Below are positions 1-43,993 of a DNA stretch of 43,993 nt, in pieces. Source of the DNA: a virus; IMG/VR virus record IMGVR_UViG_3300015195_000010, positions 1-43,993 of that record. One strand, 5' to 3'. A model generated the notes under the pieces. That model was not told where the DNA came from, ran no database searches, and saw only the letters and a list, made by a program, of their open reading frames with translations. The stretch's first letter is position 1; each line of letters begins with the position of its first letter. The translations under genes and the position numbers were made by a program.

Positions 1-152
1 CGTGGGTGGAAGATGAAGCGGCCAAGGCGGACGCCGAGCGGCAAGCCGGACTGAATGCCATGAGCCCGGCTGATCTGGCTGGCATGCTGCAGGGCCTGAT
101 CACCGAGCAAGCGGCGCGCGTCGATAATCTCCAGACGCAGGTTGAAGCGGCG
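1..152. repeat. Terminal direct repeat (copy at window start)
   Basis: Bases 1-152 are repeated at 43842-43993. Only two adjacent bases differ (AT at 127-128 against GC at 43968-43969). The reading frame of the gene entering at 43715 continues without a break into base 1, so the window closes into a circle. This can be a circular assembly with overlapping ends or a real terminal redundancy. The mismatches argue against a simple identical k-mer overlap and fit a mixed phage population. Confidence 0.9.
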
Positions 153-16794: not shown

Positions 16795-17026
16795 ACTGCG
16801 CATTCTTGGGGAAAGGGTCGGGCAACCCGTCCCTCAGGGACAGGGTAAAACGTCAACCCGTCCCTTGAAATCTCTTTCAGTTTCAGAACGTTGTGGCGGG
16901 TTAAGCGAATTAGGGTCGGGTTGTAGGACATATAAGCATGATGCGCGCGATAAGCTCATAAAGGAAAACCCGTCCCTAACCCGCCACTCGACCCTGTCCG
17001 CTGAAGCAGCAGCGGGGCGGGGATGA
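16784..17026 (+). CDS. Doubtful 80-codon frame through the repeat region
   Basis: A frame from ATG 16784 (overlapping the helicase end by 11 bases) to TGA 17024-17026 (overlapping the next ATG) is open for 80 codons. The start and stop overlaps look gene-like. However the product has no pattern and the DNA is dominated by short repeats in both orientations, which fits a regulatory region better. Confidence 0.25.
   Translation: MNNKLRILGERVGQPVPQGQGKTSTRPLKSLSVSERCGGLSELGSGCRTYKHDARDKLIKENPSLTRHSTLSAEAAAGRG
16795..17022. repeat. Repeat-rich region: candidate replication origin or operator array
   Basis: AACCCGTCCCT occurs at 16824-16834, 16855-16865 and 16967-16977. Inverted near-copies AGGGTCGGGCA and AGGGTCGGGTT lie at 16814-16824 and 16912-16922. 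GGCGGGTTA (16895-16903) and TAACCCGCC (16977-16985) form a further inverted pair. AT-richer stretches lie between. Iteron-like repeats just after a D5-type helicase gene suggest an origin; binding sites for the winged-helix protein that follows are the main alternative. Confidence 0.55.
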
Positions 17027-17511
17027 TGGCTGTGGTTGTAGCTCGCAACCCCTTCGAGATCATGCGGGACCTCGCAAGCCCGTTGTCGCCGATCGAGCGG
17101 ACGGTGCTCGGCTACATCGAGCGCGCTGCCGCCCAAGGTGTGATTCTCGACGAGAACAGCGTGATTGCCGAAGACCTTGGGGTTCAAAGCACATCCAGTG
17201 TCAGCGATGTCCTGCGCCGCCTGGAGAATAAGGGCATCATCAGCCGCAAGCTCTACCAGCGTGGCCGGCAAGTCTGCATAACCGCGACAGGTGAATGCAC
17301 CGCCGAGCCGTCCAATCTCACTCCGCACTGGCGCTTCAGGGCCGATAGCGTTCCTGCGCCTTCGGTCAGCGAAATAAAGCAGCGAATGCCCAAGACAGCC
17401 ACAACAATGGAAGCCGAGGCCCGCTTGCTCGGGAAATCATTGAACGAGTTCCTATGCGATCTCGTCTATTGCGGATGGCACGATTATCAGGCGCGGAAGG
17501 ACGACGAGTGA
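17023..17511 (+). CDS. Winged-helix regulator candidate
   Basis: A 162-residue protein. Residues ~19-95 form a MarR/LexA-type winged helix: LSPIERTVLGYIERAAAQGVILDENSVIAEDLGVQSTSSVSDVLRRLENKGIISRKLYQRGRQVCITATG. The C-terminal part (~115-160) has a helix pattern (TTMEAEARLLGKSLNEFLCDLVYCGWHDY) that may dimerise. It lies between the repeat region and the first late-promoter-like element. It is therefore a candidate for the switch to late transcription or control of replication; that role is inference. Confidence 0.72.
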   Translation: MMAVVVARNPFEIMRDLASPLSPIERTVLGYIERAAAQGVILDENSVIAEDLGVQSTSSVSDVLRRLENKGIISRKLYQRGRQVCITATGECTAEPSNLTPHWRFRADSVPAPSVSEIKQRMPKTATTMEAEARLLGKSLNEFLCDLVYCGWHDYQARKDDE

Positions 17512-17513
17512 GC

Positions 17514-17542
17514 GCGATTCAAGCATGTCGCGCCTCGTTCTA
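17514..17542 (+). promoter_or_regulatory. Late promoter-like element a
   Basis: GCGATTCAA (17514-17522), 18 bases, TA (17541-17542). It starts three bases after the stop of the winged-helix gene and precedes the packaging genes. One of seven copies with identical spacing. Confidence 0.7.
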
Positions 17543-19592: not shown

Positions 19593-19621
19593 GCGATTCA
19601 ACCCTTAGACCGCAGCGCATA
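19593..19621 (+). promoter_or_regulatory. Late promoter-like element b
   Basis: GCGATTCAA (19593-19601), 18 bases, TA (19620-19621). It follows the terL stop directly and precedes the portal operon. AGGAG (19632-19636) lies 10 bases before the next ATG, so the predicted transcript would keep its ribosome site. Confidence 0.72.
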
Positions 19622-19646
19622 GCGAGGGGCCAGGAGACTGGTCCCA

Positions 19647-24419: not shown

Positions 24420-24544
24420 TCGGCCAAGTCCTTCTCGTCATCGGAATCGTGCTGTTCATTCTCGCCGGCCTCAACGTCAACGTGAGGAGTTACAACCTCG
24501 TCGGCTTTGGGCTGGCCTGTCTCACGGCGTCGTTCCTGCTGTAG
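24416..24544 (+). CDS. 42-residue double-helix membrane protein
   Basis: GTG 24416 overlaps the previous stop (GTGA) and the frame ends at TAG 24542-24544. The product has two hydrophobic segments (QVLLVIGIVLFILAGLNV and LVGFGLACLTASFLL) joined by VNVRSYN, so a small hairpin membrane protein is predicted. Similar tiny membrane proteins lie in the head operons of other podoviruses. The stop codon overlaps late promoter-like element c. Confidence 0.65.
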   Translation: MIGQVLLVIGIVLFILAGLNVNVRSYNLVGFGLACLTASFLL

Positions 24545-24572
24545 CGATTCAAGCCTAAGCATGGGGTAGCTA
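24544..24572 (+). promoter_or_regulatory. Late promoter-like element c
   Basis: GCGATTCAA (24544-24552), 18 bases, TA (24571-24572). With the TA taken as the start of a -10 hexamer, the expected start point is at about 24583, which is the A of the next ATG. The element shares its downstream half with the hairpin 24559-24586. Confidence 0.72.
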
Positions 24573-24586
24573 GTCCTACCCCATGC
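24559..24586 (+). repeat. Perfect hairpin covering a start codon
   Basis: GCATGGGGTAG (24559-24569) and CTACCCCATGC (24576-24586) form an 11-bp perfect stem with a 6-base loop. The ATG at 24583 lies in the 3' arm. In a read-through mRNA the start codon would be closed; an mRNA starting at 24583 would lack the 5' arm. It may alternatively be a protein-binding palindrome. Confidence 0.75.
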
Positions 24587-25026
24587 AGAGGCCGCTCTAC
24601 CGGGGTCAGGGCAACCAGCCCTTCTACACCAACGTCGCCACGCCGCAGTCACGTCGCGGCCAGACCGTCCCTTATGACATCAACGGTTCGCCAACGGTCA
24701 CAACCCCCCCGCCGGGCGCGCTCAATATCTCGATTGTCGATTTGCCCCTGGCTAATGTCGCCGAGCCCTTGGTGCGGTTTCGGCTGACGCGGGATTATCT
24801 TTTCACGACCGGCGTGGCCGATGCGACCATTGGCGCCACCGGATCACCTGTCTTTCGCTTGAGGAAGAATGGCGTTGCCAGTGGGACGGTGACGTTCGCC
24901 GGAACAGTAGGCACGCTTGCATGGGGCGATTCAACCTATCCCAGCGGTGCGCTATTTGAACTCTATCCACCAGTGACGCCCGACGCGACGCTGGATCAGG
25001 TCTCGATCACTTTGAAGACCGCTTGA
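24583..25026 (+). CDS. Virion-operon protein, beta-rich
   Basis: A 147-residue protein. After a basic/polar N terminus (MQRPLYRGQGNQPFYTNVATPQSRRGQ) it is beta-rich (VRFRLTRDYLFTTGVADATIGATGSPVFRLRKNGVASGTVTFAGTVGTLAWGDSTYPSGALFELYPP). No ribosome site precedes the ATG, which fits leaderless translation from element c. Another late promoter-like element (h) lies inside the gene at 24926. Function unknown, probably head or neck. Confidence 0.68.
   Translation: MQRPLYRGQGNQPFYTNVATPQSRRGQTVPYDINGSPTVTTPPPGALNISIVDLPLANVAEPLVRFRLTRDYLFTTGVADATIGATGSPVFRLRKNGVASGTVTFAGTVGTLAWGDSTYPSGALFELYPPVTPDATLDQVSITLKTA
24926..24954 (+). promoter_or_regulatory. Late promoter-like element h (inside a gene)
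   Basis: GCGATTCAA (24926-24934), 18 bases, TA (24953-24954; context GCTATT). It lies inside the preceding gene, about 85 bases upstream of a cluster of small genes starting at 25040. Confidence 0.55.
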
Positions 25027-28335: not shown

Positions 28336-28364
28336 GCGATTCAACGCCTAGGTGCTGGCGCGTA
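28336..28364 (+). promoter_or_regulatory. Late promoter-like element d
   Basis: GCGATTCAA (28336-28344), 18 bases, TA (28363-28364). It lies directly after the stop of the repeat protein. The predicted start point (about 28375) is one base before the ATG at 28376, which has no Shine-Dalgarno, so a leaderless mRNA is expected. Confidence 0.7.
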
Positions 28365-28375
28365 AGCCCGTCTTC

Positions 28376-31461: not shown

Positions 31462-31911
31462 ATGATTGAGTTCGTCCCGGCGACGCCGGCGCATTGCGGC
31501 ATCATCGCCTGCCGGATGCGCGAATGGGATCGGATTGAATGCCAAGCGCACGGCCTCACGCCCAAACAGGCGCTTCGTCTTGGTGTCGTGGGGTCAATCG
31601 ATGTCCTGACCGCTAAGCTCGATGGCCGCCCGGAAGCGATGATGGGGCTGTCTCCGATCAATGCGCTGACTGGCGAAGGGGCGCCGTGGATGCTCGGCAC
31701 GGACGCGATTTACGACCACCCACGAGCAATGCTCAAGATGGGGCCGGGGATCATCGCCCGGTGGCGCGATTCAACGCGAAGCCTGCGCTCGGTAGTAGCT
31801 GTCGAGAACGTGCGCGCTATCCGGCTTTTGCGGAGGTGGTCGTTCACAATAGGCGATGAGGTTCGCATGATCGGCCAAGTTCCGTTCGTTTCGTTTTGGA
31901 TGGAGGGCTGA
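31462..31911 (+). CDS. T7 gp13-like (GNAT-fold) protein
   Basis: A 149-residue protein. FVPATPAHCGIIACRMREWDRIECQAHGLTPKQALRLGVVGSIDVLTAKLDGRPEAMMGLSPINALTGEGAPWMLGTDAIYDHPRAML resembles the DUF2833/gp13-type proteins with an acetyltransferase-like fold, encoded just before the ejection proteins in T7-like phages. Catalysis is doubtful. A late promoter-like element (f) lies inside it at 31766. Confidence 0.78.
   Translation: MIEFVPATPAHCGIIACRMREWDRIECQAHGLTPKQALRLGVVGSIDVLTAKLDGRPEAMMGLSPINALTGEGAPWMLGTDAIYDHPRAMLKMGPGIIARWRDSTRSLRSVVAVENVRAIRLLRRWSFTIGDEVRMIGQVPFVSFWMEG
31766..31794 (+). promoter_or_regulatory. Late promoter-like element f (inside a gene)
   Basis: GCGATTCAA (31766-31774), 18 bases, TA (31793-31794; context GGTAGTAG). 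It lies inside the gp13-like gene, about 120 bases upstream of the three ejection-protein genes. Confidence 0.55.
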
Positions 31912-40620: not shown

Positions 40621-40649
40621 GCGATTCAAGCCTAAGCCACCGGAACCTA
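40621..40649 (+). promoter_or_regulatory. Late promoter-like element e
   Basis: GCGATTCAA (40621-40629), 18 bases, TA (40648-40649; context CCTAGAAC, close to the alphaproteobacterial -10 GCTANAWC). It precedes the tailspike gene. CCTCCG-AC-CGGAGG (40657-40670) forms a short hairpin that holds the tailspike ribosome site. Confidence 0.75.
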
Positions 40650-40676
40650 GAACGGCCCTCCGACCGGAGGCCGTGC

Positions 40677-43718: not shown

Positions 43719-43993
43719 TTTTGATCGAACTCAAGGGCGAGCGCCAACTAGTCGAAAGCCTCGACGGCTATGACGGCTGGACCGTGGTCGAGAAGGACGT
43801 CGGCCTGCCGCCCAGCGACCATTGTACGCGCGTCGGCGGGGCGTGGGTGGAAGATGAAGCGGCCAAGGCGGACGCCGAGCGGCAAGCCGGACTGAATGCC
43901 ATGAGCCCGGCTGATCTGGCTGGCATGCTGCAGGGCCTGATCACCGAGCAAGCGGCGCGCGTCGATAGCCTCCAGACGCAGGTTGAAGCGGCG
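43715..43993 (+). CDS. N-terminal part of the protein that crosses the circle joint
   Basis: From ATG 43715 the frame is open to the window end and continues at base 1, ending at 176, for about 100 residues in total. The N-terminal ~45 residues (MILIELKGERQLVESLDGYD followed by GWTVVEKDVGLPP) look like a small beta domain and the rest is a helix. Residue N or S near the end of the repeat differs between the two copies because of the two mismatched bases. Confidence 0.7.
   Translation, partial: MILIELKGERQLVESLDGYDGWTVVEKDVGLPPSDHCTRVGGAWVEDEAAKADAERQAGLNAMSPADLAGMLQGLITEQAARVDSLQTQVEAA
43842..43993. repeat. Terminal direct repeat (copy at window end)
   Basis: Second copy of bases 1-152, with GC instead of AT at 43968-43969. 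This changes one codon of the gene that crosses the joint (Asn to Ser). Confidence 0.9.

Follow-up and report, generated by a model that had tools for sequence, protein, structure and literature searches.

Start codons that are opened only in RNA made from a nearby promoter are known from phage T4, where genes e, soc, 49 and I-TevI are governed by the promoter-dependent loss of an inhibitory stem, and for gene e the long RNA gives approximately 100-fold less lysozyme (PMC3014915, PMC2988022). The same kind of lock is present in segB, and in mobE of phage Aeh1 (PMC3014915, PMC2988022). Leaderless mRNAs are initiated by 70S ribosomes at 5'-terminal AUGs (PMC9031893), and they are common, with 375 recorded, in Caulobacter, an alphaproteobacterium that translates mRNAs with no Shine–Dalgarno sequence (SD) well (PMC4117421). 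Literature searches on read-through locks and on late phage transcripts with no leader returned no paper matching all of the terms. The middle and late transcripts of Thermus phage P23-45 are reportedly leaderless, and we know of no read-through lock in that phage.

The phage and its late promoter

The window, by which we mean the whole stretch of DNA analysed, is a phage contig of 43,993 bases from IMG/VR. It encodes an integrase, a cI-like repressor, RecE/RecT-type recombination proteins and a primase, together with a BPP-1/epsilon15-like virion block that includes the terminase, portal, capsid, tail tubular and internal virion proteins. Judged from its sequence, the phage is a temperate BPP-1/epsilon15-like podophage, and it has the capsid, portal, tail and internal virion protein families in common with that group. 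A 152 bp repeat (99 % identical) is found at the two ends (window 1–152 and 43842–43993), meaning that the contig is either terminally redundant or circular. Scans for Rfam families and tRNAs found nothing in the window.

Five intergenic elements in the window (late promoters a, b, c, d and f in Table 1) have a common core consisting of GCGATTCAA, exactly 18 nt and TA, and each of them lies a few bases from, or shortly after, an upstream stop codon. The promoter is described here as GCGATTCAA, 18 nt and TAG, with +1 at the 40th base. As the TAG is −10-like but is not a canonical −10, +1 was deduced from the spacing, by setting the T of TAG at −12, which places +1 at base 40. In scans of whole records, most of the larger related contigs were found to contain three to six copies, nearly all on the same strand, and the reversed-pattern control gave zero matches. 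This survey drew on uncultured related contigs, some of which were recruited by the capsid protein alone, and these have the same element with an ATG at base 40 or 41. When the collection was scanned with no requirement for an ATG, 53 unique sites were recovered and 28 of them have an open ATG or GTG at +1/+2, where about three would be expected by chance. A strict form of the pattern has only three matches in 84,980 bacterial and archaeal genomes, which is not what a host promoter class would be expected to give, and a test for host sigma-70 promoters found no TTGACA/TATAAT-like match near element c. These findings support a conserved, phage-specific element. No paper describing GCGATTCAA-N18-TAG as a promoter of phages was found in a literature search.

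The −35 varies by phage in its first two bases, which are GC, TT (throughout G005; L006) or TC (throughout G006; L007). The variants look as if the promoter and its recogniser had co-evolved. The TT and TC variants were tried as a route to more genomes and set aside, as the 69 stretches recovered had one match each, which is the level expected by chance. It follows that many of the single matches in an earlier motif scan are also due to chance, and the tests reported here therefore draw chiefly on whole genomes in which the site is repeated. Outside the intergenic regions, one further copy lies within the coding sequence of an internal virion protein, and a copy was seen at the matching place in G005, G006, G004, G019, G026, G029 and G030. 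The internal copies of G005 and G006 bear the −35 variant specific to their own phage, which argues that the internal copy is also used.

Table 1. Positions in the window of the late promoters, the predicted locks and the associated genes
Feature	Position	Strand	Details
Winged-helix DNA-binding protein	17023..17511	+	162 aa; candidate late activator, putative recognition of GATTCAA
Late promoter a	17514..17542	+	Directly after the winged-helix gene; predicted +1 17553, ATG at +6 of a 37-aa ORF
Late promoter b	19593..19622	+	Predicted +1 at 19632
Lock b	19626..19645	+	GGGGCCAG-GAGA-CTGGTCCC; SD AGGAG at stem top and loop
Late promoter c	24544..24573	+	GCGATTCAA at −39..−31, 18-nt spacer, TAG at −12..−10
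Hairpin c	24559..24586	+	5' arm 24559–24569 (−24..−14), loop 24570–24575, 3' arm 24576–24586 (−7..+4)
Gene c	24583..25026	+	147 aa; ATG at predicted +1 (leaderless)
Late promoter d	28336..28365	+	ATG 28376 at +2, leaderless, no lock
Promoter copy within internal virion protein coding sequence	31766..31795	+	
Late promoter f, tail-fibre operon	40621..40650	+	Predicted +1 at 40660
Lock f	40652..40674	+	ACGGCC(C)TCC-GACC-GGAGGCCGT; SD GGAGG in 3' arm, 5' arm −8..+2, ATG 40677

Leaderless starts

Elements c and d share a leaderless geometry, with the AUG within about 2 nt of the predicted 5' end and no SD. This geometry was found at 41 of the 82 sites in whole genomes (the class being defined by an ATG at +1 or +2 of the predicted start); the other sites comprise 24 with an SD leader and 17 that are internal, due to chance or unassigned. 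An earlier note on this DNA had proposed, from the letters alone, that element d, like element c, directs a start next to an ATG with no SD, and the geometry at d agrees with this. No hairpin of the c kind is found at d (z +0.9). The tail tubular gene that follows element d has a start of leaderless type in all 13 phages compared, whereas at genes b and f the type varies between phages, some having a leaderless start and others an SD-led one. The leaderless starts overall show a weak excess of pairing (z −1.9, p 0.03 for the unselected set; z −3.2 for the selected set), and stems resembling that at c were found at leaderless starts in G005, G021 and G030.

At three places (L074:3258, L096:1419 and L110) a leaderless mini-ORF of approximately 8 codons precedes a gene that starts with GTG or TTG. 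This mini-ORF is possibly a leader peptide or a re-initiation device.

Starts with a Shine–Dalgarno sequence

The SD-led starts usually include a 5' arm that ends near −1 and is complementary to the SD, and the stem partners lie at −1 to −8 at most sites. When the 18 nt preceding +1 were paired with the leader, the energy was −10.6 kcal/mol for the native combinations versus −6.1 kcal/mol for swapped ones (z −7.4; 22 non-redundant sites), and the effect of swapping holds within the orthologues of f (11) and within the b-type starts (8), with p ~1e-4 for each. The corresponding values were −10.3 at the SD-leader sites and −5.5 when 305 ordinary SD starts from these genomes were taken (p 1e-8). 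The lock had first been noticed by eye, and the 24 SD-leader sites in which it was noticed are those on which it was tested. Further contigs examined as a held-out set supplied almost no new SD-leader sites, as nearly all of their starts are leaderless.

The 5' arms at the 24 sites include 21 different heptamers. As nearly all are distinct, it is complementarity and not sequence that is kept, and this covariation-like pattern is what a lock acting at the level of RNA predicts and what a common DNA operator would not. The stems might instead be DNA dyads that act on transcription, either as an operator or through recognition of a hairpin promoter, as by the N4 virion RNA polymerase, and the dyad at c is indeed centred near −10. 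However, besides the diversity of the arms, the centre of the dyad moves with the SD and not with the promoter, and there are promoters, such as d, that have no dyad, making this the least probable of the alternatives considered. The tracking of the SD by the 3' arm, across leaders of different length, also tells against the stems being terminators, or protectors of the 3' ends of the upstream operon, rather than locks on start codons. Though they lie right after upstream stop codons and some are strong and GC-rich, they have no U tract (the 8 nt that follow the 3' arm contain 2.2 T on average) and no terminator-like site was found near c, and we consider this origin improbable.

The mean probability that the SD is unpaired was 0.20 in RNAs that begin at −10 or −12 and 0.53 in RNAs that begin at +1. 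The SD opens between about −8 and +1, and the predicted +1 is thus placed where the lock opens. This shift also tells against a start of transcription 8–12 nt further upstream, which would make the stems ordinary hairpins in the 5' leader of the normal mRNA and which draws its appeal from the non-canonical TAG and the consequent reliance on spacing for +1. In that case the mRNAs of virion genes would keep their own SDs closed, and the conserved starts of leaderless type would be left with a short leader that serves no purpose and lacks an SD; we give such a start little chance. The SD is mostly open in read-through RNA at five of the 24 SD-leader sites.

In the window, the 5' arm of lock b is mostly upstream of +1, and in read-through RNA the ATG (19647) is paired as well, through an outer GCGCAU/AUGUGC helix. 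The z value is −3.9 in read-through RNA, and no such fold is found in RNA from +1. For lock f the probability that the SD is unpaired is 0.00 in read-through RNA and 0.25 in RNA from +1. In three relatives, L261 (G014), L252 (G029) and L249 (G031), the b gene seems to start with ATC behind a strong GGAGG Shine–Dalgarno sequence. Taken at the level of the family (b, f and their orthologues), the computed pairing strongly supports a promoter-specific lock at the SD-bearing starts.

Element c and its hairpin

Element c overlaps the upstream TAG stop codon (24542–24544) by one base, the final base of the codon being the first of the element. Its geometry is as the earlier note described it, with GCGATTCAA at 24544–24552, TAG at 24571–24573 and the predicted +1, 24583, on the A of the ATG. 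The perfect 11 bp hairpin that the note placed across this start, GCATGGGGTAG-CTAGTC-CTACCCCATGC, was also recovered; the ATG (24583–24585) is within the 3' arm, and the 6 nt loop includes part of the −10. Given the predicted +1, it can form only in RNA begun upstream. The claim that the start codon would be closed in such RNA agrees with computed folding, in which the probability that the ATG is unpaired is 0.0006 in read-through RNA and 0.40 in RNA starting at 24583, and the read-through RNA around the hairpin folds with z −3.7 relative to shuffled sequences.

No other perfect hairpin with a short loop in the window is as long as hairpin c. A first-order model predicts approximately 0.6 stems of at least 10 bp per window by chance. 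Hence, the existence of the hairpin is not extraordinary; its position is. When the spacer and the stretch from −9 to −1 were shuffled, five of 20,000 shuffles folded as stably as c, which becomes about 0.01 when multiplied by the 40 leaderless sites examined.

The product of gene c is tail-fibre-like, going by weak tblastn matches; a protein scan of viral contigs found no relatives of it, and no lysis family was found among the genes tested for a lysis function of operon c. Gene c has a start of leaderless type in all three phages where it follows this promoter. At the two orthologous starts (L115 and L057/G013) no stem covers the ATG, and the interaction energies are 0.0 and −2.9 versus −18.3 kcal/mol in the window. 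Loss of pairing in related phages is one half of the result that the earlier note had named as refuting its proposal, and it is seen here for this stem only. The promoter-specific translation switch that the note had suggested at c is strongly supported at the level of the family for the SD-bearing starts, where pairing between arm and SD is found at b, f and their orthologues; conservation of the hairpin at c is not supported.

Leaderless initiation could be the real device at c and the hairpin a chance or neutral palindrome, no lock being needed because an internal ATG with no SD is poorly used. The stemless orthologues, the little extra pairing seen in leaderless starts as a class and the number of stems expected by chance all fit with this, and if the ATG is silent in the long RNA anyway the hairpin is redundant. 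Against it are the rarity of equally stable folds among the shuffles at this site, the stems across +1 at b and f of the same genome and the comparable leaderless stems in the three other phages. Were non-SD mRNAs translated as in Caulobacter, which may not represent the host of this phage, the stem would have a job. On balance we find a chance palindrome unlikely, though a more serious contender than any of the other alternatives. A reasonable reading is that an SD-led start needs a lock in order to be promoter-specific and that a leaderless start largely does not. Hairpin c would then be a neutral palindrome or, about twice as probably in our view, a further lock belonging to this lineage.

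A candidate activator

The winged-helix (wHTH) protein is encoded just before the late block. In an all-against-all comparison it was the only non-virion family present in all 12 phages with the motif. It was also found in four of five further contigs with the motif, the fifth being a fragment of 24.9 kb, and in none of 11 capsid relatives that lack the motif, several of which are fragments. The model of the protein is a wHTH (pLDDT 84) and its nearest matches are domains of the ArsR/MarR/LexA type. Protein scans found no match to it in viral contigs or named phages (50,697 phage records), unlike the virion families that are shared with BPP-1/epsilon15-like phages. A sigma factor was considered as the recogniser and rejected, as sigma-70 region 4 was over the Pfam cut-off in none of 17 genomes, with two weak matches below it. 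On the basis of co-occurrence, the winged-helix protein encoded by the phage probably assists in recognition of the promoter.

Discussion

The recurrence of the promoter, its fixed spacing to the ATG and a complementarity between arm and SD that exceeds the controls can be read directly from the sequence. We propose that the late operons would be driven by the phage-specific promoter GCGATTCAA, 18 nt, TAG, set such that RNA would start at the start codon itself or immediately after a short stretch able to pair with the SD. RNA begun at the promoter would lose the 5' arm and be open for translation. Read-through RNA from upstream, the existence of which we infer along with the exact +1, the repressive effect of the hairpins and the role of the wHTH protein, would keep the arm and fold away the SD or the ATG (b, c and f), or at d would present an internal ATG with no SD. 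The first gene of each operon would then depend on its own promoter for translation, and hairpin c would be a leaderless instance of the lock, with the AUG in place of the SD. We put the probability of this whole explanation, namely promoter-specific translation through leaderless starts or SD locks from a promoter aided by the wHTH protein, at roughly 0.7. Whether promoter-conditional late translation is lineage-wide, with leaderless starts and SD locks interchangeable, a new promoter class, the wHTH protein as activator and both devices combined at c, appears to us evenly poised.

The predicted leaderless starts at c and d resemble the leaderless mRNAs of alphaproteobacteria (Caulobacter) in that the 5' end, here predicted, is at the A of the AUG and there is no SD; they differ in being tied to one phage promoter family. 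The likeness to Thermus phage P23-45 is in late promoters set directly at the start codon. The P23-45 promoters are of the Thermus extended −10 type, unlike the promoter in the window.

The closest parallel is with T4 genes e, soc, 49 and I-TevI, where a promoter near the ribosome-binding site gives RNA with no 5' arm and a longer RNA hides the SD or AUG. In silico, the SD and/or AUG is paired in the longer RNA at b, c, f and most of the 24 SD-leader sites and, given the deduced +1, the promoter RNA lacks the 5' arm. However, the T4 late promoter TATAAATA is not found at the site, the promoter being GCGATTCAA-N18-TAG. Hence, this system works like the T4 set and is not a member of it. It also belongs to a different type of phage, most of the SD-led starts of this promoter class carry the lock, the locks alternate with leaderless starts on orthologous genes, and at c the lock covers a leaderless AUG. 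Two further outcomes of the analysis are a promoter specific to the phage and a candidate late activator for which no relatives turned up in scans of named phages. The principle of the lock is known from T4; what is new is its combination with leaderless starts, on a different class of promoter and across a lineage. Locks on start codons that are opened by the choice of promoter have been described for only a few T4-type genes. In the temperate podophages studied here they appear to recur across a lineage, and the fact that orthologous genes exchange them for leaderless starts suggests that promoter-specific translation is itself under selection.
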